A stretch of DNA of 36,055 nt from Chthoniobacteraceae bacterium. GTDB lineage: Bacteria > Verrucomicrobiota > Verrucomicrobiia > Chthoniobacterales > Chthoniobacteraceae. The stretch is taken from the NCBI GenBank assembly GCA_947476045.1, contig CANJNZ010000046.1:1-36055 (forward strand), written 5' to 3'. The notes beneath the pieces are model-generated. The model worked only from the letters and a program-made list of their open reading frames with translations, was not told the DNA's origin and did no database searches. The position numbers were made by a program, and so were the translations under genes. This document shows positions 642 through 23,508 of the stretch, in pieces. Positions within the stretch are counted from its first letter, which is position 1. Each line of letters begins with the position of its first letter.

Positions 642-3008
642 ATGAAAACGAAAATTCTTTCCGCTCTTGTCGCGTTGCTGGCACTGCTCACGGGGGCGCG
701 CGCCGATGGTCTCATCATCATCCACAACCCACCCGCGCCGATGCCGCAAGCGCAGCCTTGGATGCGACCGCACTACACGTTCGCGCCGCTCGAAGTGGTC
801 TTTCACAAAGTGGATGTGGACATCGCGGGGCAGAAGGCGACGACGCACGTGGAACAGGAGTTTTTTAACCCGAACAATGCGGTGCTCGAAGGCGAATATA
901 TTTTCCCGATCCCGAAAGGCGCGCATCTCGACAAGTTCACGATGAAAATCGGCGACAAGGATGTGGAGGCGGAGTTGCTCGATGCGGCGAAGGCGCGTGC
1001 GATTTACGAAGACATCGTGCGCCGTCAGCGCGACCCGGCGCTGCTCGAATACACGGGGCGCGCGGCTTTTCGTGTGCGCATCTTTCCCATCGAGCCGAAC
1101 TCGCGCAAGAAGGTGACGCTGACCTACACCGAGTTGCTGAAAGTCGACGGTGGCATCGCTGGCTATATGTATCCGCTGAACACGGAAAAGTTTTCCGCGC
1201 AGCCGCTGAAGACCGTGGCGATTAAGGTCACGGTGAATGCAGATGCGCCCATCAAGGCGCTGTATTCGCCGTCGCACGCGGTGGAAATCAAACGCGATGG
1301 CGAGAAGCGCGCGGTCATCGGCTGGGAGGCCACGAACGCACGACCAGATACCGACTTTCAACTGCTCTACTCCACGGCGAACACGGAGGTGGGCATCAGC
1401 CTGCTCACACACAAAAAGGAGAACGAGGACGGGTGGTTCCTGCTGCTCGCTTCGCCCGGCGCGAACGTGATGAAAACGAAGGACGTGAACCCGAAGGATG
1501 TGGTCTTCGTGCTCGATACGAGCGGCTCCATGGCCGGAAAAAAACTGGAGCAGGCAAAGAAGGCGATGACTTTCTGCGTCGAGAATCTGAACGACACGGA
1601 TCACTTCGAGATCGTGCGTTTCTCCACGGAGAGCGAACCGCTTTTTGAAAAACTCACCGACGCCACGCGCCCGAATCGGGACAAGGCGCTCGACTTCATC
1701 AAGGGCCTCAAACCCATCGGCGGCACGGCCATCGCCGACGCGCTGCAAAGCGCCCTCAAGCTCAAGCCAGCGACAAACAACCGGCCTTTCGTCGTCGTGT
1801 TTCTCACCGACGGCAAGCCGACCATCGGCGAGACGGACGAGGATCGCATCGTCGCGAAAGTCGTAAGCGACAACGCGAGCACGACGCGCATTTTTTCCTT
1901 CGGCATCGGCACGGACATCAACACGCATCTGCTCGACAAAATCACCGAACGCACGAAGGCCGCATCGCAATACGTGCTGCCCGAGGAGGACCTGGAAGTG
2001 AAGGTCTCCAGCTTCTTCACCAAGATCAAAGACCCGCTGCTCACGAACCTCAAACTGGAGTTCCCCGCCGGGATCAAAGTGACCAAGCTTTATCCCAATC
2101 CGCTGCCCGACATGTTTCGCGGCGACCAGCTCGTGCTCGCGGGCCGTTACAGCGGCGAAGGCGAAGGCGACGTGATTCTCGAAGGCACTCTCAACGGCGT
2201 GCCGAGGCGCATGGCGCAGAAAGTGAAATTTTCCAGCGGCGAACCGGCCAATGAGTTCATCGCGCAGCTCTGGGCGCTGCGTCGCGTGGGCTGGTTGCTC
2301 GATGAAATCCGCCTGCGCGGAGAGAACAAGGAAACGCGCGACGAAGTCGTGGACCTCGCCCGCCGCTACGCCATAGTCACGCCCTACACGAGCTACCTCA
2401 TCGTCGAGGACGAAGCGCGTCGCGGAGTGCCCGTCGCATCGCGCTCACTGCAACTCCTCGACCGCGACCGCCAAGCGCAGAGCTACTACAGCAAGAGCCT
2501 CGGCGACATGAAGGAAAAGAAAGACGGCTACGACGGCACACTCGCAGGACGCTCCAATGAATCGCTGAAGAATGCGCAAGCTCCGGGCGTCGCGCTGGAC
2601 AAAGCGTGGTCGGAAAACTTCGGCTCCGCGATTACCAGCAACGCCGCGCCCGCAGAAGCGGCAGCAGGTGGCTACGCCGCTGCAAAGCCAGCGTCATCGC
2701 TGCGCAGTGGTGGAAAAGATGGCGCACAGCTCTCCGGCACCGCAGGCGAAGTGGCCAAGCGGCTCCAGTCCGTGGATCAGCAAACACGCTGGGTGAACGG
2801 CAAGGCCTTCGCACAAAACGGCAGCAACTGGAGCGACACCGCCCTTCAAAACAAGGAGCAGCAAAACGCCAAGCGCAACCGCGTCCAATTCGCCTCGAAG
2901 GATTATTTCGCCCTGCTCACAACAAAGCCCGAGTCCGCCCAGTGGCTCGCGCTCGGCAACAGCGTCACCTTCGCCCTCGGGACCGAGGTGTATGAAATCT
3001 ACGAGTAG
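642..3008 (+). CDS. Secreted VIT and von Willebrand factor A domain protein
   Basis: 788 residues. The start is the ATG at 642, which places a clear signal peptide (MKTKILSALVALLALLTGARA) at the N-terminus; the frame is open further upstream but that part overlaps the TPR gene antisense. Residues about 30-165 form a VIT domain (vault/inter-alpha-trypsin type; EYIFPIPKGA, EAELLDAAKARAIYEDIV, YTGRAAFRVRIFPIEP). A vWA domain follows with an intact metal-ion-dependent adhesion site, DTSGS at 292-296, a Thr in GGTAIADAL and the Asp of FLTDGKPT. The last 200 residues are Ala/Gln/Ser-rich and unassigned. VIT-vWA proteins in bacteria are exported and thought to bind proteins or metals; substrate unknown. 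No LPXTG, PEP-CTERM or C-terminal membrane anchor is seen, unlike sortase-target relatives. Confidence 0.9.
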   Translation: MKTKILSALVALLALLTGARADGLIIIHNPPAPMPQAQPWMRPHYTFAPLEVVFHKVDVDIAGQKATTHVEQEFFNPNNAVLEGEYIFPIPKGAHLDKFTMKIGDKDVEAELLDAAKARAIYEDIVRRQRDPALLEYTGRAAFRVRIFPIEPNSRKKVTLTYTELLKVDGGIAGYMYPLNTEKFSAQPLKTVAIKVTVNADAPIKALYSPSHAVEIKRDGEKRAVIGWEATNARPDTDFQLLYSTANTEVGISLLTHKKENEDGWFLLLASPGANVMKTKDVNPKDVVFVLDTSGSMAGKKLEQAKKAMTFCVENLNDTDHFEIVRFSTESEPLFEKLTDATRPNRDKALDFIKGLKPIGGTAIADALQSALKLKPATNNRPFVVVFLTDGKPTIGETDEDRIVAKVVSDNASTTRIFSFGIGTDINTHLLDKITERTKAASQYVLPEEDLEVKVSSFFTKIKDPLLTNLKLEFPAGIKVTKLYPNPLPDMFRGDQLVLAGRYSGEGEGDVILEGTLNGVPRRMAQKVKFSSGEPANEFIAQLWALRRVGWLLDEIRLRGENKETRDEVVDLARRYAIVTPYTSYLIVEDEARRGVPVASRSLQLLDRDRQAQSYYSKSLGDMKEKKDGYDGTLAGRSNESLKNAQAPGVALDKAWSENFGSAITSNAAPAEAAAGGYAAAKPASSLRSGGKDGAQLSGTAGEVAKRLQSVDQQTRWVNGKAFAQNGSNWSDTALQNKEQQNAKRNRVQFASKDYFALLTTKPESAQWLALGNSVTFALGTEVYEIYE

Positions 3009-3038
3009 CCCGACGCGCAACCTGCTTAAAACACGGCC

Positions 3039-3416
3039 ATGAAAATCATACTCACCGCCATCATGTTCCTCGTCGCTTCACTGCACGGGGCTGAACCAAA
3101 GGAAAATTTCCCGGAATTCATGAACCTCGATAAAAAGACTGCTGCGGCAACTGCCCGCAAACAGGCGGAGACAGATCTTGCCGCAGGCACTTATCGCATC
3201 CTCGTTTTTGGATTACGTATGTCGAATCCACCTTTCGATCAGCGCCTCAAAAAAGCAGGTGTGCAGGTGAAAGCCATCGCCGGCTGTGTCGTCAACGACG
3301 GCATCCTCGAAGGGGCGCGCGTTTATAACGAGATCATGCGCGAAAAGCTGAAAGCCAAACTCGGCTACGACGTTTTTGATAAGAAAGCCGAACCACAAAC
3401 ACAACCTGCGAAATGA
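3039..3416 (+). CDS. Small secreted protein of unknown function
   Basis: 125 residues with a signal peptide (MKIILTAIMFLVASLHGAEP, probable cleavage near residue 18). I do not recognise the mature part. It has a Lys/Ala-rich helix around residues 30-45, a short hydrophobic strand YRILVFGLRM, the segment VQVKAIAGCVVNDG with the only cysteine, and a charged tail ending in a Pro/Gln stretch. It starts 30 bases after the vWA gene, and its TGA overlaps the ATG of the following rhodanese gene (ATGA at 3413-3416), so the two are very probably cotranslated. Acting with the rhodanese-like protein in the periplasm is inference from this overlap. Confidence 0.75.
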   Translation: MKIILTAIMFLVASLHGAEPKENFPEFMNLDKKTAAATARKQAETDLAAGTYRILVFGLRMSNPPFDQRLKKAGVQVKAIAGCVVNDGILEGARVYNEIMREKLKAKLGYDVFDKKAEPQTQPAK

Positions 3417-3946
3417 AACTGCCAATTATCTTCGCCATCGCAGCCCTCGCGCCGCTCTACGCCGCTGAAAATCCCATTCAGCAGAAAGCCGCCCCTGCCC
3501 GTCCAATCCCCAACGAGCTGATTGATTATCCGAAATACCTTCAAATCGCCCGCGAAGTGCAGCCATTGCGCGAGAAGCGGCGGCTTACCGAAGAGCAGTT
3601 CGCCACAATGGCCGCCGAACCGGGCACCATCGTCCTCGACGCGCGCAGTGCGGACAAATTCAAACTCCGCCACATTCGCGGCGCAGTCAGTCTGCCCTTC
3701 ACGGATTTCACCGTGGATTCACTTGCAAAAGTCATCCCGGAAAAGACGACGCGCGTCCTCATTTACTGCAACAACAACTTCCTCGGCGCACCCGTCTCGC
3801 TTCCCGGAAAGAAGGCGGAGATCGCACTGAACATCTCCACCTACATCGCGCTCGCGACCTACGGCTACACATACATCTACGAACTCGGTCCGCTACTCGA
3901 TGTGAAAACGACCAAGCTCCCTTTCGAGGGTGACGAAGTAAAGTAG
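3413..3946 (+). CDS. Periplasmic rhodanese-like domain protein
   Basis: 177 residues: signal peptide (MKLPIIFAIAALAPLYAAE), a charged helical stretch (residues about 35-65), then a single rhodanese domain (IVLDARSADKFKLRHIRGAVSLPF ... RVLIYCNNNF). C119 in IYCNNNFLG is at the place of the catalytic persulfide cysteine, although the loop after it is Asn-rich and lacks the usual CxxGxR pattern, so activity as a sulfurtransferase is uncertain. The C-terminal region (STYIALATYGYTYIYELG) keeps the family end. The start overlaps the stop of the upstream small gene by four bases. It is convergent with the ABC permease, with only eight bases between the stops. Confidence 0.85.
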   Translation: MKLPIIFAIAALAPLYAAENPIQQKAAPARPIPNELIDYPKYLQIAREVQPLREKRRLTEEQFATMAAEPGTIVLDARSADKFKLRHIRGAVSLPFTDFTVDSLAKVIPEKTTRVLIYCNNNFLGAPVSLPGKKAEIALNISTYIALATYGYTYIYELGPLLDVKTTKLPFEGDEVK

Positions 3947-5704: not shown

Positions 5705-6439
5705 TCACTTCCCCGCATCCTCGCCAACGAGCCGAATGAAAATTTCCTCCAGCGACGCGTCTTTTCCATCGGTGCTAAACTGCGAGTGAATTTGCGCCAG
5801 CGTGCCGTAAGCTATCTTTTCTCCACGTTTGAGGATGAGGACGTGCGAGCACACTTCTTCGAGCAAATGCAAAAGGTGGGAGCTGATGAGAATGGCGACG
5901 CCCTGCTTCGCCTGCTGCACGATGAGATCTTTTGTTCGGCGAATCGCGAGCGGATCAAGACCGGTGAGCGGCTCGTCGAAAAACATCACCTGCGGGCGGT
6001 GGAGAAAGCCACACGCGAGGGCGACTTTTTGTTTCATCCCGCGCGAAAGTTCGGTCGGTAGCTGGTCGGCTTTGTCTTTGAGTTCCAGAAATTCCAGCAG
6101 CTCGGCGCTGCGCGAGGCGGCGTCCTTAGTTTTGTAAAGTCGCGCGGTGAATTCGAGGTGCTGGCGGACGGTGAGGTAATCGAAAAGCCGCGGTTCATCG
6201 GCGAAAAACGCCAGCTTTCCCTTCGCTTCGAGCGGATTCACCGCCATGTCGTAGCCCGCGACGATTACCGTCCCATGCGTAGGCGGGATGATGCCCGCGA
6301 GGCAGCGCAGCGTGGTTGTTTTGCCGGCACCGTTCGGGCCTACGAGTCCCATGACTTCGCCAGGGCGCACAGCAAAGCTGAGTTCGCGCACGGCGGCGAA
6401 ATCGCCATAGAGCTTGGTGAGTCCGTCGGTGGCAATCAT
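5705..6439 (-). CDS. ABC transporter ATP-binding protein
   Basis: 244 residues from ATG at 6439, giving the usual MIATDGLTKLYG start; the 29-residue extension to 6526 is Arg/Ala/Ser-rich, overlaps the divergent lipoprotein gene and is not believed. Walker A is GPNGAGKT (34-41), the signature is LSRGMKQ (131-137, the common Arg-Met variant of exporter ATPases), Walker B is VMFFDEP (151-157) and the switch His is H188 in ISSHLL. The closest type is the CcmA/NatA class that drives drug, sodium or polysaccharide export. With the permease directly downstream it forms a complete two-gene exporter. Confidence 0.92.
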   Translation of the reverse strand: MIATDGLTKLYGDFAAVRELSFAVRPGEVMGLVGPNGAGKTTTLRCLAGIIPPTHGTVIVAGYDMAVNPLEAKGKLAFFADEPRLFDYLTVRQHLEFTARLYKTKDAASRSAELLEFLELKDKADQLPTELSRGMKQKVALACGFLHRPQVMFFDEPLTGLDPLAIRRTKDLIVQQAKQGVAILISSHLLHLLEEVCSHVLILKRGEKIAYGTLAQIHSQFSTDGKDASLEEIFIRLVGEDAGK

Positions 6440-6527
6440 GTGCGTGGAGGATGCGCGGCGGGGTGGAGTGGAAGCAAGCGCGCTCCGCGCTGGCAACCGG
6501 CGCGCACTTTGTGCAGCCTGCCGCACA

Positions 6528-8120
6528 GTGAAACATTTCTATCTCTGTTTGCTCTTTGCTTTTCTCGCTGCGTGTGGTCGCCAGACCGAGCGTGCGGAGT
6601 TGGTGGTGATCAATGGCGCAGAACCGGACACGATTGATCCTGCAAAAATCCGCGGGCAGCCGGAGGGGCGCGTTGCGAATTCGCTTTTCGAGGGGCTCAC
6701 GCGCTCGAATCAAGCGGGCGAGGCCGAGCCGGGCGTTGCGGAAAAGTGGGAGATTTCGCCCGATGGACGGCGCTACACTTTTCACCTCCGCGCGAATGCC
6801 AAGTGGAGCAACGGCGAGCCTGTCACTTCGCGTGATTTTCTTTGGTCGTGGCTGCGCACGCTTCGCGAGCCGGAGGCGGAATACAAATACCAGCTCTATT
6901 ACGTGCGGGGCGCAGAGGCGTTTGGCGAAGCGAAGGACAATGCCTCGCGTCCGCCGGAAAGCACCGTGGCCATCGCCGCGCCGGACGACCGCACTTTCAC
7001 TGTCGAGCTGAACAACCCGACGCCGTTCTTCATAGACCTGTGCGCGTTTTACACGCTCATGCCGGTGCATCGCTCGACTGTGGAGACTGCGGAGGCCAGC
7101 AAAGTGCCGTGGCTGCGACCCGGCAAAATCGTGAACAACGGTCCGTTCCTTCTCACCGAGTGGAAGCTGAATGATCGCATCCGGCTCGTTCGCAATCCGC
7201 ACTACTGGGACGTGGCTAATGTAAAAATGAGCAGCGTGGACATGCTGCCGTCGCCATCCGCAAACACCGCTTTTAATTTCTACAGCAACGGCATCGCGGA
7301 TCTGATCCTCGATAAATCCATGGTGCCCACGTCGCTGATTGATGAGTTGAAAAAGCGGCCCGACTACCACGCGTCGTCCATCCTCGCGACTTACTTCATG
7401 CGATTCAATGTGACGCGAAAACCGTTCGACGATGCACGGGTGAGGAAGGCTTTTGGACTCGTGGTGGACAAAGGACTCCTCACTGAAAAGGTCACGAAAG
7501 CCGGCGAAGTGGTGGCCGATGCATTCGTCCCGCCGGGCACTGCGGGCTATCAGCCGCCAGCCGGCCTCGGTCGCGATGCAGAGCAAGCGCGCAAACTACT
7601 CGCCGAGGCGGGCTTTCCCGGCGGCGCAGGTTTTCCCGTAGTGCATTATCTTTACACGAACAAGACGGAGACTGACGAAAAAATCGCCGTGGAGTTGCAG
7701 ACGATGTTCAAACGCGAGCTGGGCATTTCGATTCAGCTCACGAAGAAAGAATGGGCAGTGTATTTGAATTCGCTCAGCTCACTGGATTATGATTTCTGCC
7801 GCTCGTCATGGGTCGGCGATTACAAGGACCCGAACACTTTTCTCGACATGTTCATGACCGGCGGCGGCAACAACAACTGCGGCTGGAGCAACAAGACGTA
7901 TGACGACATCATCCGCAGCGCCGGAAAGGAGCCGGATCAGGAAAAGCGGTTCGCGCTTTTCCGAAAGGCCGAGACGATGCTCGTCCACGACGAAGTGCCC
8001 ATCGTCCCGTTTTTCAACTACGTCGTGGTGATGTTTTACGATGGTGAACGCCTCGGCGGCATACAGGGAAATCTCACGGACGAGCATCCGTTCCGCGCCA
8101 TGTTTTGGAAAAAGAAGTGA
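6528..8120 (+). CDS. Oligopeptide-binding lipoprotein (SBP_bac_5, OppA type)
   Basis: 530 residues from the GTG at 6528. This start gives a lipoprotein signal peptide, VKHFYLCLLFAFLAAC, with lipobox LAAC and the lipidated Cys at residue 16; the frame is open upstream but that part overlaps the divergent ATPase gene. The mature part has the family marks: EPDTIDPAKIRG near the N-terminus, SLFEGLTR, EKWEISPDGRRYTFHLR, AKWSNGEPVTSRDFLWSW, VRKAFGLVVDK and the C-terminal DYKDPNTFLDMF ... WSNKTYDDII. It should capture peptides in the periplasm for an Opp/Dpp importer, but no permease or ATPase of that kind is nearby. Its TGA overlaps the next ATG (TGATG at 8118-8122). Confidence 0.9.
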   Translation: MKHFYLCLLFAFLAACGRQTERAELVVINGAEPDTIDPAKIRGQPEGRVANSLFEGLTRSNQAGEAEPGVAEKWEISPDGRRYTFHLRANAKWSNGEPVTSRDFLWSWLRTLREPEAEYKYQLYYVRGAEAFGEAKDNASRPPESTVAIAAPDDRTFTVELNNPTPFFIDLCAFYTLMPVHRSTVETAEASKVPWLRPGKIVNNGPFLLTEWKLNDRIRLVRNPHYWDVANVKMSSVDMLPSPSANTAFNFYSNGIADLILDKSMVPTSLIDELKKRPDYHASSILATYFMRFNVTRKPFDDARVRKAFGLVVDKGLLTEKVTKAGEVVADAFVPPGTAGYQPPAGLGRDAEQARKLLAEAGFPGGAGFPVVHYLYTNKTETDEKIAVELQTMFKRELGISIQLTKKEWAVYLNSLSSLDYDFCRSSWVGDYKDPNTFLDMFMTGGGNNNCGWSNKTYDDIIRSAGKEPDQEKRFALFRKAETMLVHDEVPIVPFFNYVVVMFYDGERLGGIQGNLTDEHPFRAMFWKKK

Positions 8121-10129
8121 TGGACTGGCTCACATTCCGGCTCTATCGCGCGCTTGGGTTTTGCATCGCCCTGCTACCCCTGCGCGGTGCCATCCGCACA
8201 GGACGCGCGCTCGGCTGGCTCGGCTACTGGCTGCTGCCAAAATATCGCGGCATCGCGTTAAAAAATATCGGTATTGCATTTCCTGAGCGCCCTCTGCGGG
8301 AGAGAAGACAGCTTGCGCGGCAGCACTTCACCACGCTCGTCGGAAATCTTTTCGCAGCCGAAAAAATCACGCGCCTATCGTCCGATAACATTCGCGCGCT
8401 CGTGGATGTGAGCGGGCTCGATATCGCCGAGCAGCTCGTGCGCGAAAAGCGCGGTGCAATTTACCTCACCAGCCATATCGGCAATTGGGAACTGCTCGCG
8501 CAACTCGTGCCGCTCTCGCTTCCGTTTGTGAGCGGCACCATTTTCCAGCGGCTGAACAATCCATATTTCGACGCGCACATCCGCAATGCGCGCGGGCAGA
8601 GCGGACTCGCACTTTTCGAGCGCAAAGAGGGCTTCGGCGCAGCCATCGAGCTGCTGCGCAAAGGCGGTGCCGTTGGTGTATTGAGCGACCAGCATGCTGG
8701 AGATGCAGGTGTTTGGTGTCCGTTTTTCGGACGCCTCGCGAGCACTTCGCCACTCGCCGCGATGCTTGCGCTGCGCACGGGCGCGGCGGTGTTACCGCTA
8801 GCGATGCACACAAACGGCAGTGGCCGCTGGCGCATGGTGATTGAGGAACCGGTGAAATTCGGAAATCGCGATGTGGGCGAGGTAACGGCGAAATTGAACG
8901 GTGCGCTGGAGCAGATGATCCGTCGCCAGCCGGAGGATTGGTTCTGGGTTCACAACCGCTGGAAGACACCGAAGCCAAAATTTCTCCTCACAACTTACAA
9001 GCGCGGGATCGTGGCGCCAAAACCGCCCGAACGCCCGGTGGATACCGACGCGGGCGAGCTTTTCGCCTTTGCCGCACAGCAGGTGGCGGCGGCGAAACTT
9101 CAGCCATTCCGCATTGTCATCCGTTCATCAAACTGGCTCGGAGACGCAGTGATGACCGTGCCCGCCGTGCGCGCCATCAAGCGCGGAAGACCCGATGCAC
9201 ACATCACGATCCTCACCCCTGCAAAGCTCGCTGATGTCTGGAGGCTCGTGCCGGAAGTGGACGACGTCATCCCTTTCGAGGCGCCGGGTGGAAGCGGGAT
9301 CTTGCGCACGCTGCGGAGTCTTTTTCATCCGTGGCGCGTCGCGCGCAAACTGGGAGCGCGCAATTTCGATGCGGCGGTGATTTTTCCGAACAGCATCCGC
9401 TCGGCAGTCGAGGCATGGCTCGCCGGCATCCCGCGGCGCGTGGGCTATCCGGGGCACAAAGGGCGCGAGTTTTTTCTCAATCAAATCCTGCGGGAGAAAA
9501 AGAAGAAGAAGGACGTCAAGCAAGAGCACCAGGTGCATCACTACATGAAGCTGGCGGAGTTTATCGGCGCGGAAATCGACGGCGAAATCATCCTCGCCGA
9601 GAGCACAGAACGCACAGCGTCCAGTTCCACAAAACTCCGCATTGCCGTCTGCCCCGGCGCGGAATACGGAGGAGCGAAACGCTGGTTGCCGGAGCGATTT
9701 GCGGAAGTGATCCAGTCCTTCAGCGCGGAGCGTGATTGCGAGTGGACTCTCGTCGGCACGTATAAAGATCGTGTGGTAGCAGACGAAATTCTCACACACG
9801 CCAAGCACCCCGCCAACGCCACAAACCTCTGCGGCCAGACTTCACTGGAACAACTCATCGCCCGCCTGCGCGCCAGCGACGTGCTGCTCACCAACGACAC
9901 TGGCACCATGCACCTCGCCGCACTTCTCGGCGTGCGCACCGTCGCGATATTTGGAAGCACCGAGCCCGCGCTCACCGGCCCGCTTGGCCCCGGCCATATC
10001 GTGCTGCGGCACAAAGTCGAATGCAGCCCGTGCTTTCTCCGCGAGTGCCCGATTGATTTCCCCTGCATGAAAGCCATCGAGTCCCACGAAGTCGTCGCCG
10101 CAATCCGCACGATGACTGAAGCAAAATAA
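8120..10129 (+). CDS. Fused lipid A acyltransferase and glycosyltransferase family 9 protein
   Basis: 669 residues from ATG 8120, coupled to the upstream gene by TGATG; a TTG at 8105 and a GTG at 8117 are alternative in-frame starts. Residues about 1-300 are an LpxL/HtrB-type late acyltransferase: hydrophobic N-terminus, HIGNWE with the HX4E catalytic pair H119/E124, GGAVGVLSDQHAG, and FWVHNRWKTP at the end. A linker of about 25 residues (APKPPERPVDTD) leads to a GT9 domain (about 325-665): SSNWLGDAVMTVPAVRAI with GD at 341-342, VCPGAEYGGAKRWL, NDTGTMHLAALLG from 592, FGSTEPALTGPLG. GT9 enzymes include the ADP-heptose:LPS heptosyltransferases (WaaC/WaaF). The fusion would acylate lipid A and extend the core from one polypeptide at the inner membrane. 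The sugar donor is not provable from sequence. No frameshift or stop is seen at the junction. Confidence 0.9.
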   Translation: MDWLTFRLYRALGFCIALLPLRGAIRTGRALGWLGYWLLPKYRGIALKNIGIAFPERPLRERRQLARQHFTTLVGNLFAAEKITRLSSDNIRALVDVSGLDIAEQLVREKRGAIYLTSHIGNWELLAQLVPLSLPFVSGTIFQRLNNPYFDAHIRNARGQSGLALFERKEGFGAAIELLRKGGAVGVLSDQHAGDAGVWCPFFGRLASTSPLAAMLALRTGAAVLPLAMHTNGSGRWRMVIEEPVKFGNRDVGEVTAKLNGALEQMIRRQPEDWFWVHNRWKTPKPKFLLTTYKRGIVAPKPPERPVDTDAGELFAFAAQQVAAAKLQPFRIVIRSSNWLGDAVMTVPAVRAIKRGRPDAHITILTPAKLADVWRLVPEVDDVIPFEAPGGSGILRTLRSLFHPWRVARKLGARNFDAAVIFPNSIRSAVEAWLAGIPRRVGYPGHKGREFFLNQILREKKKKKDVKQEHQVHHYMKLAEFIGAEIDGEIILAESTERTASSSTKLRIAVCPGAEYGGAKRWLPERFAEVIQSFSAERDCEWTLVGTYKDRVVADEILTHAKHPANATNLCGQTSLEQLIARLRASDVLLTNDTGTMHLAALLGVRTVAIFGSTEPALTGPLGPGHIVLRHKVECSPCFLRECPIDFPCMKAIESHEVVAAIRTMTEAK

Positions 10130-13873: not shown

Positions 13874-16800
13874 ATGCCCTCAGCTAAAAAATCCGCCAAA
13901 AGTCCCGCTGCAAAATCAAAGAAAGCTGCGCCAGCCGTGAAAAAGCCTGCGAATATCGCAGATGTCGCGGAACTGGCTGCGGAGCCGATGCCGAAATTCA
14001 AACCACAGCCGGGCTGCAAAGTGGTCGTGCGCGGGAAGACTTCGGCGGGTTATGCAGAAATCGCCAGCGTGTCAGGCTCAAAGGCGAAGCTGCGTTTTTG
14101 CACCGACACGGTGAACGCGGTGGAGGTAGAAGTGCCGGTGGAGTCGCTCGCGCACGCGCCGCTGCCCAATCAGACCCGCGTCTTTCACACCGCAAAGGGG
14201 CTCGTGCGCTATGGTCGCATCATCGCAGCGAAGCAGCTCACCAGCGCGATGCGCACGTATCTCGTGCATTTCCCCGGCGCGGCATCGCTCACGGAGATGA
14301 AAGAGGACGACTTTTCAGTGCGCTCGTATTTGCCGGGAGATGATCCTTCGGTCGTGCTCGGCGAGCTGGCGCAGGAGACGCCGTTCTTTTTTCAACAGCG
14401 GACAGATTTGCTGCGCGAACTGCTGCGGCAGAACCAGCTTGCGCACGGACTACCGGCACTGCTGTCGTCGAAGGTCGAAGTACTCCAGCATCAGGCCGAG
14501 GTCGCGAACCGCGTTTTGCACGACCCCGTCATCCGTTACCTGCTGGCGGACGAGGTGGGACTCGGCAAAACGATCGAAGCCGGAATCGTCCTCCGTCAAA
14601 TCCAGCTCGATGCGCCAGACTCTCGCATCGCCGTTGTCGCGCCGGACGCGCTGACGCGGCAATGGCGCGAAGAACTGGATACGCGTTTCGGGCTCGATGA
14701 CGTGGAGGTTTTCCCGCACTCGGCTCTGCTGAAAGACAAGGAGCTGCTCGACGAAGACTGGGATGTGCTCGTGATGGATGAGGCGCACCGGATCGTCGCA
14801 CGCGAAGGAGTGGTTGTTTCGGGGACGACAAGAAATGCACTGAAGATCGCGCACGCCGCGAAACATTTACTGCTGCTCTCCGCGACGCCGGTGCTTCATC
14901 ACGATGCCGACCTGCTGGCGCTTTTGGAACTGCTTGATCCGGAAAATTATTCCGCAGCGAAGCTCGCCGATTTCAAAGAACGCACGACGAAGCGCGTCGA
15001 GCTGGGGCGCGCCTTTCTCGCCCTGCGCAGCGCGACGGTTCCCGCGTTGGTGAAATTGCACGCCGGAAAACTTGCCGCGCTTTTACCAAACGACTCGACG
15101 GTGAAGGAACTCGCAGCCGCACTGAGTAAACTGGGTGCGGATGCAGTGGCAATTCAGGGTGAACTGCATCTCCACATCAGCGAGACCTACCGCATCCACC
15201 GCCGGATGCTGCGCACACGCCGCCGCTGGCTGGCCGGTGCACAAAAACGTTTTGTGCGCGATGTGCAGGAGAGCGTGGAAGTGGAACTCGATGAAGAACC
15301 GCACGCCACGCTCTGGACCGCGCTGGAAGCATGGCGCGCCGCCGCGAGCAAACGTATCGGCGACGACAAACTGCTCGCTACTGCCGCTGCAGAATACATC
15401 CGTCTCGCCGAAGCCATCGCAGCAGAGCCGGAAAAACTTGGCGACTTGGTAAAGGAAGTCGCCAAAGCGACGAAGGCCACGCCCGCGGAGGAAAAACTCC
15501 TCGCCGCGCTCGTGGACGATAAGGCCGCATGGCAGATGTCCGAAGCCCGACTCGATTTGATCGCCGAGTCGCTGCGCCGTCGCGCCACGAAGGACGGAGC
15601 CAGCGCGAAGTATGTGGTCTTTTGCCCAAGCGCACGCCTGAGCGCGGATCTCGCAAAGCGACTGCACAGTTTCTTTTCGCCCATCGGCGTGAAGGTGGCC
15701 ACGGCGAGCAAACTCGGTTCGCAGGTCGGTGAATTGTTCTCCGACTTCGCTGGCGATGCGCACGCCCGCGTGCTCGTGACCGATGCGACTGGCGAAGAGG
15801 GCTTCAATCTACAATTCGCCCGCGCTGTGTTTTTCTACGACCTGCCATGGTCGCCGATGCGGCTCGAACAACGTCTCGGTCGTCTGGATCGTATTGATCG
15901 AACAGGCGCGATTCCGTGCGTCGTCTGCACAACTGGCGAGGACGATACGCAGGCGCTCGATGAAGCATGGCGGCGCGTGCTCGATGAGGGATTTGGTCTC
16001 TACGCCGCGAGCATCTCCGATCTCCAGCATCTCGTGGACACCGAGCTTCCGCGCCTGCGTGAACACGCATTCAAGGGCGGCGCACAGGCATTGCTTGATG
16101 CGATCCCCGCGCTCGCAGAGGCTGTGAAAAAGGAGCGCACGAGCATCGAAGAGCAGGACGTAATTGACGGGATGCACAGCCTTTCGCCCGAGAGCGCGCT
16201 CGCCCGTGACCTCGCCGCAGCCGATGCCTCTGCGGAAAATTTTGGCACGGCGTTTAGCGCATATTTGCAGCGCAATCTCGGCCTTGAAGAGCGCTGGGAC
16301 GAGGAGACGAACTCGCTCAAGTTTCGCATGAAACGCGACAGCAATCCGCTCATCCCGGCGGACAAGCTGGACTCGCTCGCCGGAATGTTCGCGACGAAAT
16401 TCACCGTCCATCGCAGTGTGGTCATCGAGGATTTGTCGCTCGATTTTCTCCGCCCCGGCCACTCCGCCGTTGACGGCTGCCGCGAGCTGCTCGCGTGGGA
16501 TGACCGTGGACGCGCTTGGGCCATGTGGCGCAGCGTGCCGGGTATGAAATCACCCAAACTCGTCTTCCGCACACTCGTGCGCGTCGGCGTGGATTTGCGC
16601 AGCGTGGAAAAGGCGCTCGCATCCATTGAGTGGGATGAAATCCGTCGTGGCGGCCTGCTGCGGTTAGTGCGCAGTTGGTTCCCGGAATTTATCACCGAAC
16701 TTTGGTTCGATGAAACCGGCGAGGTTGCCGCCGAAAAACTAATCGAGCCGTGCCGTCGGCCATATCACTTCAAGTTGGATCGCAATCTCGGCAAAGAACG

Positions 16801-17176
16801 CGCCGAGCATGTGCGCTCGAAATTTGGAGAAAAGGAATGGCGCAAGTCATGCGAGACCGTTGCGAAGAAGGCGCTCTCCTCCGTGCAAAAAGGCGATACG
16901 CTCAAGCAGGCACGCGACGGTGCTCAGAAGCAGGCGGGTGATCATTTCGCGATGATGCGCGCAAGGCTCAAGGCACGTCAGCAGGCGGGGATAGATTCCG
17001 GCGCACAAGCGAAGGCGGAGGCGAAACTCGAAGACACGCTCGATACTTTGGTCGGGGAAATTTTAGCCGCGCCCATCGTGACACTGGACACACTCGGAGC
17101 CTATGCACTCAGCGAAAAACCGTGGTGGCCCGAGCCGGACTGGCAGCCTGAACTCGCCTGGCGCTCGAAGCGATAG
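13874..17176 (+). CDS. SNF2/RapA-type helicase, DpdE-like
   Basis: 1100 residues. A Lys/Ala/Ser-rich tail (1-25) precedes a region with two short beta-rich segments (about 45-150). Then comes a superfamily 2 SNF2 motor: ADEVGLGKT (Walker A K232), VMDEAHRI (D302-H305), LLLSATPVLHH, then DATGEEGFNLQFA and QRLGRLDR (666-673, arginine fingers). The middle insertion (about 400-570) and C-terminal 350 residues are mostly helical and unassigned. Family members remodel protein-nucleic acid complexes: RapA recycles RNA polymerase, while DrmD and DpdE belong to DISARM and the 7-deazapurine DNA system. The stretch DPVIRYLLADEVGLGKTIEAG recalls DpdE-type proteins to me, but no dpd or drm partner gene is present here. 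Neighbours are housekeeping, so the role stays open. Confidence 0.85.
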   Translation: MPSAKKSAKSPAAKSKKAAPAVKKPANIADVAELAAEPMPKFKPQPGCKVVVRGKTSAGYAEIASVSGSKAKLRFCTDTVNAVEVEVPVESLAHAPLPNQTRVFHTAKGLVRYGRIIAAKQLTSAMRTYLVHFPGAASLTEMKEDDFSVRSYLPGDDPSVVLGELAQETPFFFQQRTDLLRELLRQNQLAHGLPALLSSKVEVLQHQAEVANRVLHDPVIRYLLADEVGLGKTIEAGIVLRQIQLDAPDSRIAVVAPDALTRQWREELDTRFGLDDVEVFPHSALLKDKELLDEDWDVLVMDEAHRIVAREGVVVSGTTRNALKIAHAAKHLLLLSATPVLHHDADLLALLELLDPENYSAAKLADFKERTTKRVELGRAFLALRSATVPALVKLHAGKLAALLPNDSTVKELAAALSKLGADAVAIQGELHLHISETYRIHRRMLRTRRRWLAGAQKRFVRDVQESVEVELDEEPHATLWTALEAWRAAASKRIGDDKLLATAAAEYIRLAEAIAAEPEKLGDLVKEVAKATKATPAEEKLLAALVDDKAAWQMSEARLDLIAESLRRRATKDGASAKYVVFCPSARLSADLAKRLHSFFSPIGVKVATASKLGSQVGELFSDFAGDAHARVLVTDATGEEGFNLQFARAVFFYDLPWSPMRLEQRLGRLDRIDRTGAIPCVVCTTGEDDTQALDEAWRRVLDEGFGLYAASISDLQHLVDTELPRLREHAFKGGAQALLDAIPALAEAVKKERTSIEEQDVIDGMHSLSPESALARDLAAADASAENFGTAFSAYLQRNLGLEERWDEETNSLKFRMKRDSNPLIPADKLDSLAGMFATKFTVHRSVVIEDLSLDFLRPGHSAVDGCRELLAWDDRGRAWAMWRSVPGMKSPKLVFRTLVRVGVDLRSVEKALASIEWDEIRRGGLLRLVRSWFPEFITELWFDETGEVAAEKLIEPCRRPYHFKLDRNLGKERAEHVRSKFGEKEWRKSCETVAKKALSSVQKGDTLKQARDGAQKQAGDHFAMMRARLKARQQAGIDSGAQAKAEAKLEDTLDTLVGEILAAPIVTLDTLGAYALSEKPWWPEPDWQPELAWRSKR

Positions 17177-17234: not shown

Positions 17235-19472
17235 ATGACACGTGTCTTTTTACTCCTGAGTCTCCTGCCGGCATCCGCGCTCACCGCTGCGCCCCTGCCC
17301 GCCGATCACGCTGAGAGGATGACCCGCGGGCTCGCGCTTTTTCAGAAAGACGTTCGTCCACTTCTCACGGAGCACTGTCTGAATTGCCACGGTGGAAAAA
17401 AGACGAAGGGGGAATTCGACATGGCGACGCGCGAGGGTTTGTTGAAAGGCGGTAAGGAGAGCGTTGGTGTGGTGCCTTTCGATGTGAAGGCGAGCGGGCT
17501 GCTCAAACTTGTGCGGCACGAAGTGGAGCCGAACATGCCGGACGACAAACCGAAGCTCCCGGATGATGCCATCGCGAAAATTTCCGAGTGGGTCGAAAAC
17601 GGCGCGCCCTACGACAAGCCACTCATCGAAGGCAAAAAGCCCGCACGCGACCGGGCGGTGGTGACTGCGGAGGACAAGCAATGGTGGGCCTTCCAACCGC
17701 TCGCAAAGGTCACGCCGCCCGCTGGCATCGCGCATCCGGTGGATGCGTTTCTTTCACAAAGTGCAGCGAAGAAAGGGCTGGAGTTTGCAGCGCCCGCCGC
17801 ACGGCGAGTGTTAATTCGGCGCTTATATCTCGATTTGATCGGCCTGCCGCCAACTCCGGAGGAAGTTGAACAATTCCGCCAGGCATCAAACAGCAATCCG
17901 CAATCGGCGACGGCTGCTCTCGTGGATGATTTGCTCGCGCGCCCACAGCACGGCGAACGTTGGGCGCGGCACTGGCTGGATGTCGCACGTTTCGCGGAAA
18001 GCAGCGGCTTTGAGCACGACTACGACCGCCAGGGTGCGTTCCACTACCGCGACTTTGTAATTAAGGCGCTGAACTCGGACATGCCGTTTGATCAGTTCGT
18101 GCGCTGGCAGATCGCGGGCGATGAATACGAACCGGGCGACATGCTCGCTATGTCGGCCACGGGATTCCTCGGCGCGGGAGTTTTCCCTACGCAAATCACG
18201 GCCAACGAAGTCGAGCGCACACGCTACGATGCGATGGACGATATGCTCTCGACGACGGCGAGCGCGTTCCTCGGCCTGACGGTTGGCTGCGCTCGCTGCC
18301 ACGATCACAAATACGACCCGATTCCGACGCGTGACTATTACCGGATGCTCAGCACGTTCACCACGACCGTGCGAAGCGTGCTCGATTTGAACACCGAGAC
18401 GACCGACACGCCGGAAGGGAAAAAGCCCGCAGGGCCGAAAACAAAGGTGCTCGTCTGCGCGGAGGGACACGCCCCGCTGCGGATGCACACGCAGGGCGCG
18501 GACTTTTTTCCCGACACGCATATTTTGAAACGTGGAAGTGCTGACATGAAAGAGGGCGTTGCCACACAGAGTTTCCTACAAGTGTTGATGCCTGCCGTCG
18601 ATGCTGAGAAGCAATGGCAGTGGTCTCCGCCGAACGGTGTGAAGTATTCAGGGCGTCGGCGTTCACTCACCAACTGGCTCACGGATGTGGAGCACGGCGC
18701 GGGTGCGCTCACAGCACGAGTGATCGTGAACCGACTCTGGCAACATCATTTCGGCACAGGGATCGTTGCCACGCCGAATGACTTTGGCCGGACGGGCGCG
18801 CTGCCGACGCAGCCAGAGCTTCTCGATTTCCTCGCGGGCGAATTAATTCGCGGTGGATGGAAATTGAGACCGATCCATCGTTTGATCATGACGAGCGCCG
18901 CCTACGCGCAGAGCAGCGCGCCGGATCGCGCGAAAGAATCCGCCGATCCGGCCAATGCAACTTTTACCCGGCGCATCCCACAGCGCCTCGAAGGCGAAGC
19001 GATTCGCGACAGCATCCTCGCCGTGAGTGGCGCACTTGATGAGCGGATGTTTGGCAGCGGGACGAAGGACGAACGGAGCAAGCGCCGTAGCATTTACTTC
19101 ACGGTGAAACGCAGCCAGCTCATCGGCTCGATGGTGGCGTTTGATCAGCCGGAGCCGCTGGTCAGCCAGGGTTCGCGTCCGACGACGACCGTCGCTCCGC
19201 AGGCGTTGATGCTGATGAACGGCCCGCAAGTGCGAGATTGGGCTGACGCATTCGCCACGCGCATCGGCAAGGGCGAACCCTCCGCACAAGTCACTCGCGC
19301 ATATTCGCTCGCACTGGGCCGCGCACCGACGAGTGACGAATTGAGCGATGCGCTCGCTTTTATCACAGCCCAGACGAAGAGCTACGAAGCAGAAAAAATG
19401 GCGCCAAGTCTTGCTCTGATGGATTTTTGTCAGGTGCTGTTTGGACTCAATGAATTCAGTTACGTATTTTAA
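17235..19472 (+). CDS. Planctomycete-type cytochrome protein with DUF1549 and DUF1553 (first copy)
   Basis: 745 residues with a signal peptide (MTRVFLLLSLLPASALTAAP). Domain order: PSCyt1 haem-like domain with CLNCH at 48-52 (EHCLNCHGGKKTKGEF), DUF1549/PSCyt2 (about 165-370; LYLDLIGLPPTPEEV, ERWARHWLDVARFAES, and a second CxxCH, CARCH at 352-356) and DUF1553/PSD1 (about 480-735; LTARVIVNRLWQHHFG, NDFGRTGALPTQPELLDFLA). These proteins are typical of Planctomycetota and Verrucomicrobiota and are often near sulfatases or DUF1501 proteins; the reaction is not established. Covalent c-haem in the periplasm is inferred from the CxxCH motifs. It heads a four-gene block and its stop is one base before the next ATG. 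Confidence 0.9.
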   Translation: MTRVFLLLSLLPASALTAAPLPADHAERMTRGLALFQKDVRPLLTEHCLNCHGGKKTKGEFDMATREGLLKGGKESVGVVPFDVKASGLLKLVRHEVEPNMPDDKPKLPDDAIAKISEWVENGAPYDKPLIEGKKPARDRAVVTAEDKQWWAFQPLAKVTPPAGIAHPVDAFLSQSAAKKGLEFAAPAARRVLIRRLYLDLIGLPPTPEEVEQFRQASNSNPQSATAALVDDLLARPQHGERWARHWLDVARFAESSGFEHDYDRQGAFHYRDFVIKALNSDMPFDQFVRWQIAGDEYEPGDMLAMSATGFLGAGVFPTQITANEVERTRYDAMDDMLSTTASAFLGLTVGCARCHDHKYDPIPTRDYYRMLSTFTTTVRSVLDLNTETTDTPEGKKPAGPKTKVLVCAEGHAPLRMHTQGADFFPDTHILKRGSADMKEGVATQSFLQVLMPAVDAEKQWQWSPPNGVKYSGRRRSLTNWLTDVEHGAGALTARVIVNRLWQHHFGTGIVATPNDFGRTGALPTQPELLDFLAGELIRGGWKLRPIHRLIMTSAAYAQSSAPDRAKESADPANATFTRRIPQRLEGEAIRDSILAVSGALDERMFGSGTKDERSKRRSIYFTVKRSQLIGSMVAFDQPEPLVSQGSRPTTTVAPQALMLMNGPQVRDWADAFATRIGKGEPSAQVTRAYSLALGRAPTSDELSDALAFITAQTKSYEAEKMAPSLALMDFCQVLFGLNEFSYVF

Positions 19473-19473
19473 A

Positions 19474-22047
19474 ATGACACGCCGCTTCATTCTCGCCCTC
19501 GTGATCCCGCTAAGCGCACACGCGGCGGAAAAAATTTCCTTCAACCGCGACATCCGACCGATCCTTTCAGAAAACTGCTTTTACTGTCACGGCCCGGATG
19601 CGCAGAAACAGAAAGCCGAACTGCGTCTGGATCTGCGTGATGCTGCACTGAAAGGCGGCGAGTCTGGAAAGACGGCGATTCAACCCGGAAAACCAATGGA
19701 GAGCGAAGTGATCAAACACATCCTCTCAACAGATCCCGAGGAACACATGCCGCCAAAGAAAAGCGGCAAAACGCTAAAGCCGGAACAAATCGAGTTGATG
19801 AAGCAATGGATAGCCGAGGGTGCCGAGTATCAAGGACACTGGGCATTTCTAAAACCACAGAGACCGGATGTGCCTGAAATCCGAAATCCGAAATCCGAAA
19901 TCCGAAATCCGATTGATGCGTTTGTTTATGCGCGACTGGAGAAAGAAAAAATCGCACCTGCGCCCGAAGCATCGCGTGAAACTCTGATCCGCCGCGCCTC
20001 GCTCGACCTGACTGGAATCCCTCCGACACCGGAAGAAGTGGATGCCTTCCTCAACGACCGCGCTCCAAACGCCTACGAAAAAGTCGTGGACCGTCTGCTC
20101 GGGTCTCCGCGCTATGGAGAACGCATGGCGGCGCAGTGGCTCGATTTTGCACGCTACGCGGACAGCAACGGGTTTCAGGAGGATTCTTCGCGGCAGATGT
20201 TCAGTTGGCGCGATTGGGTGATTGGCGCGTTCAACCGCAATATGCCGTTTGATGAATTCACCATCGAACAGCTCGCGGGCGATATGCTGCCAAATGCCAC
20301 GACGGATCAAATTGTTGCGACGGGTTTTAATAGAAATCACAGGCTGAATGGCGAAGGCGGACGCATTGTCGAGGAGTGGTTCACCGAGACCGTAATCGAT
20401 CGCGTGGAGACGACGGGACAGACGTGGATGGCGCTGACACTGGGCTGCTGCCGCTGCCACGATCACAAATTCGATCCCGTTTCGCAGAAGGAATTTTACC
20501 AGCTCTACGCGTTTTTCAATTCCAACGAGGAAAGCGGCGTGCTCGAAGCGCGCAATCGCGGAAACACGATGCCATTCATCAATGTCCCCACGCCGGAGCA
20601 GGCCGCACAGATCACGAAGCTGGAAAAGGAAATCAATGACGCGGAGTCGCGGAAAAACGTGGCTGCGATGGAACTGCCAAAGTTGCAGGCTGTATGGGAA
20701 GAGACACAACTCGCCGAGATTAAGAAGGCCGACGAAGCTGCTGCTCTTCAGCCGCCAACGGAACCTAAACAAAAGGCCACAACAAAGCTCACCGAGTCGG
20801 CAATCCTCGCGCTCAAGACGGAAACTGCAAAGCGCACGGATGCGCAGAAAGCGGAGCTGACGAGAATTTTCAACGACACCAACGATACGCCGGTGAAGCA
20901 GGCGGAGAAAATCATCGTGGTGAAGAAGAAGGAGCGCGACGGCATCAAATCAAACGCACCCACTACGATGGTGATGAAAGAAATCGCGCAGCCGCGCGCG
21001 GCTACGATTTTGAGACGCGGCGAATACGACAAAAAGGGCGATGTCGTGGAGCGTGGATTGCCAGCCGCGTTGCCACCGATGCCCGCCGGTGCGCCGATGA
21101 ATCGCCTCGGTTTTGCGCAGTGGCTCGTTTCCGGCGAACATCCACTCACAGCACGCGTTTGGGTGAATCGCGCGTGGGAGCGGTTCTTTGGAATGGGGCT
21201 TGTGAGGACTTCGGAAAATTTCGGCTCGCAGGCGGAGTGGCCTTCGCACCCGGAGTTGCTGGGCTGGCTCGCTACGGAGTTCGTGCGTTTGAAATGGGAC
21301 ATGAAAGCGATGCAGAAAACCATCGTGATGAGCGCGACCTACCGGCAGTCGGCGCGCAGCACGCCGGAACTGATCGAGCGTGATCCGGACAACCGCCTGC
21401 TCGCACGCGGCCCACGCTTCCGGCTCACCGGCGAGGCACTGCGGGATCAGGCGCTCGCGGTAAGCGGCCTGCTCGTGGAGAAAGTCGGAGGGCCGAGCGT
21501 GAAGCCCTACATGCCGCCGGCGGTGTGGGACGAAACGAGCGTCTATGGCGATATGCGCGGCTACAAGTCCGACACCGGCGAGGGACTTTATCGCCGCTCG
21601 CTTTACACGATTTGGAAACGCACCGCCGCGCCGCCTTCGATGTTGATCTTCGATTCCGCGACACGTGAAATTTGCACTGTGAAACGCAGCCGCACCAATA
21701 CTCCGCTGCAAGCTCTCTCGTTGCTCAACGAAATCACCTACGTGGAAGCCGCTCGCAAACTTGCGGAACGCATGCTCACCGAAGGCGGTGTTACGACTGA
21801 TGAACGCATCACGTGGGGCTTTCGCCGGGCGACGAGTCGGAGGCCCGATCCGACTGAGTTGAAGGTTCTCACCAGCGGCGTTGAGCAACGATTGGTGCAA
21901 TTCCGACAGAACGCCGAGTCCGCTAAACAGCTACTCGCATTCGGCGAATCCAAACCACTGGCAACGCTCGATCCAGCCGAACTCGCCGCCTACTCGGTCG
22001 CTGCGAATGTCATCCTGAACCTCGATGAAGTCATCACCCGCGAATAA
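19474..22047 (+). CDS. Planctomycete-type cytochrome protein with DUF1549 and DUF1553 (second copy)
   Basis: 857 residues from ATG 19474, which gives a signal peptide (MTRRFILALVIPLSAHAAE); the frame is open to a TTG at 19441 inside the previous gene. It has the same domain order as its neighbour: CFYCH at 35-39, DUF1549 with LDLTGIPPTPEEVDAFL and CRCH (second CxxCH, residues 325-329, with an extra Cys in the CCRCH run), and DUF1553 (LTARVWVNRAWERFFGMGLV, NFGSQAEWPSHPELLGWLA). It is longer than the first copy by a Lys/Glu/Ala-rich helical insertion (about 385-490, possible coiled coil). Residues 135-146 are encoded by a 7-bp tandem repeat. The two copies are clearly diverged, so the duplication is old. 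Confidence 0.9.
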   Translation: MTRRFILALVIPLSAHAAEKISFNRDIRPILSENCFYCHGPDAQKQKAELRLDLRDAALKGGESGKTAIQPGKPMESEVIKHILSTDPEEHMPPKKSGKTLKPEQIELMKQWIAEGAEYQGHWAFLKPQRPDVPEIRNPKSEIRNPIDAFVYARLEKEKIAPAPEASRETLIRRASLDLTGIPPTPEEVDAFLNDRAPNAYEKVVDRLLGSPRYGERMAAQWLDFARYADSNGFQEDSSRQMFSWRDWVIGAFNRNMPFDEFTIEQLAGDMLPNATTDQIVATGFNRNHRLNGEGGRIVEEWFTETVIDRVETTGQTWMALTLGCCRCHDHKFDPVSQKEFYQLYAFFNSNEESGVLEARNRGNTMPFINVPTPEQAAQITKLEKEINDAESRKNVAAMELPKLQAVWEETQLAEIKKADEAAALQPPTEPKQKATTKLTESAILALKTETAKRTDAQKAELTRIFNDTNDTPVKQAEKIIVVKKKERDGIKSNAPTTMVMKEIAQPRAATILRRGEYDKKGDVVERGLPAALPPMPAGAPMNRLGFAQWLVSGEHPLTARVWVNRAWERFFGMGLVRTSENFGSQAEWPSHPELLGWLATEFVRLKWDMKAMQKTIVMSATYRQSARSTPELIERDPDNRLLARGPRFRLTGEALRDQALAVSGLLVEKVGGPSVKPYMPPAVWDETSVYGDMRGYKSDTGEGLYRRSLYTIWKRTAAPPSMLIFDSATREICTVKRSRTNTPLQALSLLNEITYVEAARKLAERMLTEGGVTTDERITWGFRRATSRRPDPTELKVLTSGVEQRLVQFRQNAESAKQLLAFGESKPLATLDPAELAAYSVAANVILNLDEVITRE
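19876..19910 (+). repeat. Perfect heptanucleotide tandem repeat inside a coding region
   Basis: Five exact copies of GAAATCC in tandem (35 bp) lie between the PSCyt1 and DUF1549 domains of the second cytochrome-type gene. Because 7 is not a multiple of 3, the repeat reads through all three frames (EIRNPKSEIRNP), and gain or loss of one copy would shift the frame. The unit is unlike the surrounding GC-rich coding sequence. Confidence 0.95.
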
Positions 22048-22050
22048 TCC

Positions 22051-23505
22051 ATGAACTGCAACGACCACTCATTTCTTTCCCTCGATCGCGCGACACAGAT
22101 GACTGTGACACGCCGCACTTTCCTCGAACGCGCAGCAGGCGGAATCGGACTCGCCGCGCTCGGTTCGCTGCTCGGCGGAAAAGCGCAGGCCGCTCCCGCA
22201 TTTCCCAACTTTCCAGCGAAGGCGAAACGGATCATCTACCTTTTCCAAAGCGGGGCTCCTTCGCAGATGGACCTCTTTGATCCAAAGCCCGAGATGGAAA
22301 AACATCGCGGTGAGGATTTGCCAGCGAGCATCCGTCAGGGGCAGCGACTAACGACGATGACGAGCGGGCAGAGCAAATTCCCCGTTGCACCGAGTATGTT
22401 CAAATTCGCGCAATATGGAAAAAGCGCCGCGTGGTTCAGTGAACTGATGCCGAACATGAGCGCGATGGCGGATGACTGGTGCATCGTGCGCTCGATGAAC
22501 ACAGAGGCGATCAACCACGACCCGGCGATCACTTTCATGCAGACCGGTTCGCAACTCGCCGGACGCCCGAGCATTGGCTCATGGGTGGGCTACGGTCTTG
22601 GCAGTGAAAATAAGGATCTGCCCGCTTACGTGGTGCTCACATCGTTCGGCAGCGGACGCAAGGACGACCAGCCGCTGTATGATCGCTTGTGGAGCGCCGG
22701 ATTTTTGCCAGCGAAGCATCAGGGCGTGAAATTTCGCAACAAGGGAGATCGGGTGCTTTATCTCTCGAACCCACCCGGCATGGATGCAGCAACGCGGCGC
22801 GAATCGCTCGACGAACTGGCGGCCTTGAACGGAAAACATTTCGACACGCTGGGCGATCCGGAAATCCAGACACGCATCGCGCAGTATGAAATGGCGTTTC
22901 GGATGCAGACGAGCGTGCCCGATCTCACAGATATCTCGAAGGAGCCCGAGAGCGTGTTGAAGACATATGGACCGGAGGTGAAGACGCCGGGCAGTTACGC
23001 ATCGAACTGCCTGCTGGCGCGTCGTCTCGCGGAGCGCGATGTGCGTTTCATCCAGCTATTCCACATGGGATGGGATCATCACGGCGGACTGCCGGGGGCG
23101 ATTCGCGGCCAATGCAGGGACACGGATCAGCCGACAGCGGCGCTTCTCGCGGATTTGAAACAGCGCGGCCTGCTCGACGACACGCTGATTGTGTGGGGAG
23201 GCGAATTTGGACGGACGATTTATTCGCAGGGCGCGCTGAGTGCGAACAACTACGGGCGCGACCATCACCCTCGTTGCTTCACGGTCTTGCTGGCCGGCGC
23301 AGGAATCAAAGCGGGAATGACCTACGGAGCGACGGATGATTACTGCTACAACATCACAGAGAATCCGGTGCATGTGCATGACCTCAACGCGACCATCCTC
23401 CATCTCATGGGAGTGAATCACGAGCGGCTGACGTTCAAATTCCAAGGCCGCGATTTCCGCCTGACGGATATCCACGGAAATGTGGTGAAACAAATACTCG
23501 CGTAA
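22051..23505 (+). CDS. Tat-exported DUF1501 protein (first copy)
   Basis: 484 residues from ATG 22051, three bases after the previous stop. An in-frame ATG at 22099 would give a shorter form starting [10 protein letters not shown]; both keep the twin-arginine signal (RRTFL, R21-R22, followed by a Gly/Ala/Leu stretch to AQA). DUF1501 belongs to the alkaline phosphatase/sulfatase-like fold. Typical segments are [75 protein letters not shown] and [15 protein letters not shown]; the conserved Asp/His residues may bind metal. No nucleophilic Ser/Thr or Cys of sulfatases (CxPxR) is seen, so its enzyme activity is unproven. Close pairing with PSCyt genes is the usual context of the family. Confidence 0.9.
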
Positions 23506-23508
23506 CTC

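Follow-up and report, generated by a model that had tools for sequence, protein, structure and literature searches.

A conserved gene joining an LpxL-type acyltransferase to a WaaF-type heptosyltransferase II in the class Verrucomicrobiia

Introduction

LpxL and WaaF both work on the cytoplasmic side of the inner membrane; WaaF acts on Hep-Kdo2-lipid A, and the step catalysed by WaaC (HepI) lies between those of LpxL and WaaF. The substrate of LpxL is Kdo2-lipid IVA (PMC6286764). In a 36,055-nucleotide stretch of DNA from a Chthoniobacteraceae bacterium (referred to here as the window), a single open reading frame appears to encode relatives of both enzymes, raising the questions of whether this is a genuine fusion and of what is gained by joining two such steps in one polypeptide. 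Both enzyme families are well known; no description of their fusion was found in the literature searched, with prior automatic annotation being possible.

Results and discussion

The fused gene and its domains

The gene lies on contig C46 of a draft genome (4.37 Mb, 97% complete, 123 contigs) and its frame is open throughout (Table 1). The initial annotation, made from the window alone, proposed a true fusion of a late lipid A acyltransferase with a GT9 domain, and this proposal stands: both domains occupy one frame, neither a stop nor a frameshift occurs at or near the linker, and the same junction is shared by 92 related loci in independent genomes.

Table 1. Window coordinates of the fused gene, its parts and its upstream neighbour
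Feature	Position	Strand	Basis or location
Fused gene, LpxL-type acyltransferase and WaaF-type heptosyltransferase II, 669 aa	8120..10129	+	Pfam, NCBIfam, alignment
Acyltransferase half, residues 3-283	8126..8968	+	PF03279
Catalytic H119	8474-8476	+	Acyltransferase half
Catalytic E124	8489-8491	+	Acyltransferase half
Conserved C-terminal segment of acyltransferase half, residues 287-300, PxPxFLLxxYKRG-like	8978..9019	+	
Variable linker, residues 301-328; low confidence 314-321	9020..9103	+	
GT9 / heptosyltransferase II half, residues 329-669	9104..10126	+	
G341-D342	9140-9145	+	GT9 half
NDTG (N592-D593-T594-G595)	9893-9904	+	GT9 half
Cys-rich tail, C635-C649	10022-10066	+	GT9 half
OppA-like peptide-binding protein gene, upstream neighbour	6414..8120	+	

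The N-terminal half matches PF03279 (residues 3-283, E 1.6e-52, 179 bits against a cut-off of 22.3; Pfam). The LpxL, LpxP and LpxM equivalogs of NCBIfam match it as well, all below cut-off (best 134 bits against 248), so that it is classed within the PF03279 superfamily rather than as a proven LpxL, with acyl position and donor not fixed by sequence. It shares the fold, the HX4E motif and a conserved arginine and aspartate with LpxL/HtrB and LpxM (PF03279; A. baumannii LpxM, 5kn7) and differs from them in being fused to a glycosyltransferase and in scoring below every LpxL/LpxM equivalog cut-off.

The C-terminal half matches PF01075 (residues 405-645, E 2.7e-41; Pfam) and exceeds the cut-off of the heptosyltransferase II equivalog TIGR02195 (residues 331-666, 201.8 bits against 134.6; NCBIfam), with TIGR02193 and TIGR02201 far under theirs; its best structural match is E. 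coli HepII (1psw; Foldseek). The initial label, GT9 heptosyltransferase-like, was correct as to family and can be refined to specifically HepII (WaaF)-like. The fold and the GD and ND(T/S)G motifs are those of WaaF, which is usually a protein in its own right but here follows an acyltransferase as the C-terminal half of one chain. Residues H119, E124, R158, D190, G341-D342 and N592-D593-T594-G595 are invariant in a 48-sequence alignment, and those already picked out in the initial annotation (H119/E124, GD at 341-342 and NDTG from 592) had been correctly placed. The counterparts of the first four in E. coli LpxL are H132, E137, R169 and D200 (PMC6286764).

An AlphaFold2 model built from the 48-row alignment has a mean pLDDT of 89.6 and a pTM of 0.89, with pLDDT under 50 at residues 314-321 only. 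Because uncertain placement of two similar-sized halves should lower pTM clearly, the model predicts that the halves adopt one fixed relative arrangement. The N-terminal half finds LpxM (5kn7) and PatA as structural matches (Foldseek), and none of the PDB matches listed (LpxM, PatA and GT9 enzymes) spans both halves.

Mean identity among relatives is 47% for the acyltransferase half, 52-57% for the GT9 half and 24% for the linker. Of the joining stretch, originally described as a linker of clean Pro-rich sequence, only residues 301-328 are variable, whereas residues 287-300 are more conserved than either domain (59% mean identity over 43 relatives). The linker is also longer here than in most relatives, in which the median distance between the two domain models is 17 aa.

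The upstream OppA-like gene ends in a TGA stop codon that shares one base with the fusion's likely ATG (TGATG), and the same neighbour precedes the fusion in 14 loci of the order, including that of Chthoniobacter flavus; the two genes are probably co-transcribed. LPS genes do not adjoin the locus. Elsewhere in the window, a DpdE-like SNF2 helicase (13874-17176, +; NF041062, 766 bits against a cut-off of 500; DpdE according to PADLOC) is encoded; a scan of proteins encoded downstream of it in the window picked up no other dpd gene. It is followed by two PSCyt1/PSCyt2/PSD1 proteins and then two DUF1501 proteins (17235-24936, +), a pairing common in planctomycetes and Verrucomicrobia, by a FecR-domain protein (28382-30349) and by an open frame (31242-36050, -) that contains DUF5649 repeats, is at least 1602 aa long, reaches the window end and has the FecR-domain gene upstream.

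Conservation and distribution of the architecture

Both halves lie in one frame across the junction in all 92 relatives examined, which come from the same order and from family f11 and may include some genomes present in two collections; four of the 92 are interrupted by contig ends, within the acyltransferase half only. The isolate C. flavus Ellin428 carries the fusion and single-contig genomes have the same junction. The order yielded no clean orthologous split into two intact genes. Its members are fused throughout, and the condition named at the outset as refuting a fusion, homologues that are always split, does not hold. The fusion is the sole PF03279 gene in several families and the only one in two reduced, single-contig genomes (0.9 Mb) belonging to the order.

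In a genome scan, the best 80 loci were all titled Verrucomicrobia or subgroups thereof, with matches covering both halves. Beyond the phylum the survey comprised these best 80 genome-contig matches and plasmids; no record in the plasmid collection covered 80% of the query, and a viral structure library yielded only separate glycosyltransferases of note. Across 288 genomes surveyed within the phylum, the complete architecture turned up in many Verrucomicrobiia families, at identities down to about 30%, whereas the orthologous WaaF/GT9 enzyme was seen standing alone outside this class. The fusion is probably old in the class and is present through much of it; it is conserved and, judging from the alignments, both halves are under constraint.

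Proposed function

We infer that the product is a bifunctional membrane-attached LPS enzyme, and an old fusion with LpxL-like secondary acylation and WaaF-like transfer of the second heptose is its probable identity. The N-terminal half would add a secondary acyl chain to a Kdo-lipid A precursor, a separately encoded WaaC-like enzyme would add the first heptose and the C-terminal half would then transfer the second inner-core heptose from ADP-heptose. Joining most probably serves to keep an otherwise peripheral heptosyltransferase next to the acyltransferase at the membrane, with the two in a fixed 1:1 ratio.

Separate genes for a WaaC-like enzyme (contig C5), WaaA and LpxK are present in the genome. 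As to separate counterparts of the two halves, it carries two PF03279 genes and four GT9 genes besides the fusion, but none of these GT9 genes passes TIGR02195; redundancy of the fusion with a separate waaF in this genome was rejected on this basis. A heptose kinase (contig C35, 332 bits against a cut-off of 345) and an adenylyltransferase (contig C33, 177 bits against 181.5) both score far above background, and by these matches the genome appears to be equipped for ADP-heptose synthesis.

The initial suggestion that the fusion might channel the lipid A intermediate or change the order of steps is not supported as stated. Since a separate third enzyme, HepI (WaaC), must act between the two steps, direct channelling between the active sites is unlikely and co-localisation is likelier than hand-over. 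The bifunctional heptose kinase/adenylyltransferase HldE and the LpxC/FabZ fusion are likewise LPS-pathway enzyme fusions restricted to some taxa, the latter being reported in Verrucomicrobia and others (PMC3087551). In HldE the two steps belong to a single pathway arm, whereas the present fusion brings together lipid A acylation and core assembly, in steps that are not consecutive.

Separate fates of the two halves

Every fused or truncated sequence shown from the fused clade retains the histidine, glutamate and aspartate of the acyltransferase, and the GT9 half occurs in four states. In the order studied here and in f11 its WaaF motifs are canonical and are accompanied by a Cys-rich tail, the GD, AKRW and ND(T/S)G motifs being present in 79-80 of 81 loci of the order. 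In a second group, for which 'Opitutales-like' serves as an analysis label (part of f10, f7, f13, f15 and f16), the motifs are intact, the Cys tail is absent and the sequence is very divergent. In genus g9 of f8, very probably the gut bacterium Akkermansia, the half is of full length with NWLGD, KRW and NDTG replaced and the Cys tail mostly kept. In the other f8 genera and in genera g15 and g21 of f10, only a tail of ~100-160 aa is left.

The acyltransferases of the latter two f10 genera (loci L126, L139, L158 and L202) cluster with the truncated f8 type and not with those of other f10 members, possibly through horizontal replacement or because of a family-label issue. In one f6 genome (G280; L138, 2155-4159, -) the frame of the fusion is interrupted within its GT9 part, by frameshift or assembly error. 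Two further loci (L134 and L136) with a long in-frame stretch upstream of GT9 were rejected as fusions, the stretch having no match to an acyltransferase profile.

The state of the GT9 half parallels the capacity to make its presumed donor. RfaE domain II gives a strong match (152-187 bits) in 16/16 genomes with an intact GT9 half and in none of nine with an eroded half (66 bits or less); six of seven genomes of the Akkermansia genus also have a strong match. Genomes G140 and G085, whose half is eroded, show no GT9 gene. The Fisher value (5e-7) overstates the correlation, since in the acyltransferase tree the eroded members group as a single clade and few independent events thus lie behind it. 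The co-occurrence agrees with an ADP-heptose-dependent enzyme. Where heptose use shrank, the GT9 half probably either lost its catalytic motifs, as in Akkermansia, or was reduced to a short tail, with the acyltransferase half staying.

Two families inside the class, f9 and f12, have a stand-alone WaaF and no match to the acyltransferase half of the fusion; because WaaF works there without that half, joining is not essential to it. In f9 waaF adjoins lpxK. The two f9 genomes checked (G042 and G072) contain no PF03279 gene.

The sufficiency of WaaF by itself in f9 and f12, the shortness and variability of the middle linker, and the erosion of the GT9 half with the acyltransferase half retained are all compatible with a neutral fusion, in which a stop codon within an operon was lost and the halves, joined without coupling, act as if separate. 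This reading has a real, though smaller, chance of being correct than a bifunctional enzyme that profits from being joined: a neutral fusion sits less well with the lack of clean orthologous splits in the order, with the fixed arrangement predicted for the halves and with the retention of a motif-less GT9 half at full length across Akkermansia.

Origin of the fusion

Set against the phylum's other LpxL-type proteins, the acyltransferase halves of all fusions form one clade (support 99), and a branch (98/82) has the GT9 halves of the order and of Akkermansia together on the same side. In the free tree the Opitutales-like GT9 halves lie on a long branch, away from those of the order; their grouping with HepI is disfavoured (AU p 0.034). 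This position, and the missing Cys tail, would be explained if the Opitutales-like fusion arose independently, in a second event that linked the same acyltransferase with another GT9 gene. Such an event has a fair probability but is the less likely reading, given that the tests do not reject (AU p 0.23) a single GT9 clade including the Opitutales-like members, although the best tree lacks it, and that the acyltransferase halves are monophyletic.

In one f10 locus (L154, genus g24; 1479-3455, -), an LpxL-type gene and a GT9 gene, both distinct from those of the fusion, adjoin in one frame with a single TGA between them. It was rejected as an orthologous split, its acyltransferase lying outside the fused clade and its GT9 being of another type; the arrangement possibly shows how such fusions start.

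The divergence of the Opitutales-like GT9 half, and the variation in acceptor and donor among GT9 members, also bear on whether this half transfers another sugar or another heptose (e.g. as HepI or HepIII) instead of heptose II. For the present protein this is improbable in view of the TIGR02195, TIGR02193 and TIGR02201 scores, the best structural match to HepII and the separate WaaC-like gene. An assembly or frame artefact, conceivable in a window taken from a 123-contig draft, is of negligible probability given the same junction in 92 other loci, C. flavus Ellin428 and single-contig genomes among them.

Implications for Akkermansia

One genome (G113) of g9, the presumed Akkermansia genus, has a single PF03279 gene, which is the fusion with the motif-less GT9 half, and one other GT9 gene, a candidate HepI. 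The motif-less half of a relative in the same genus (G111) was modelled as a folded GT-B domain (pTM 0.86) that structurally matches GT9 enzymes including HepII, and the Akkermansia half is accordingly predicted from the model to be a full-length GT-B pseudo-domain without catalytic motifs. In a further genome of the genus (G024; L129, 2721-4863, +), the acyltransferase and motif-less GT9 halves lie in two overlapping frames.

The core oligosaccharide of A. muciniphila is reported to contain one heptose, and a low-identity LpxL-like gene of this species was flagged in 2025 as a 'potentially new acyltransferase' (PMC12527988). A motif-less GT9 half fits the one-heptose core, and because G113 has only one PF03279 gene the flagged gene is probably the fusion. 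A bolder extension of the bifunctional reading, that the fusion is an LPS assembly unit coupling acylation with heptosylation and that the Akkermansia GT9 half is a pseudoenzyme scaffolding or regulating acylation, seems unlikely as it stands.

The fusion bears on the prediction of LPS for the whole class, including A. muciniphila, the lipid A acylation of which is debated. It also offers a natural experiment on the fate of one half of a putative bifunctional enzyme once its pathway shrinks.
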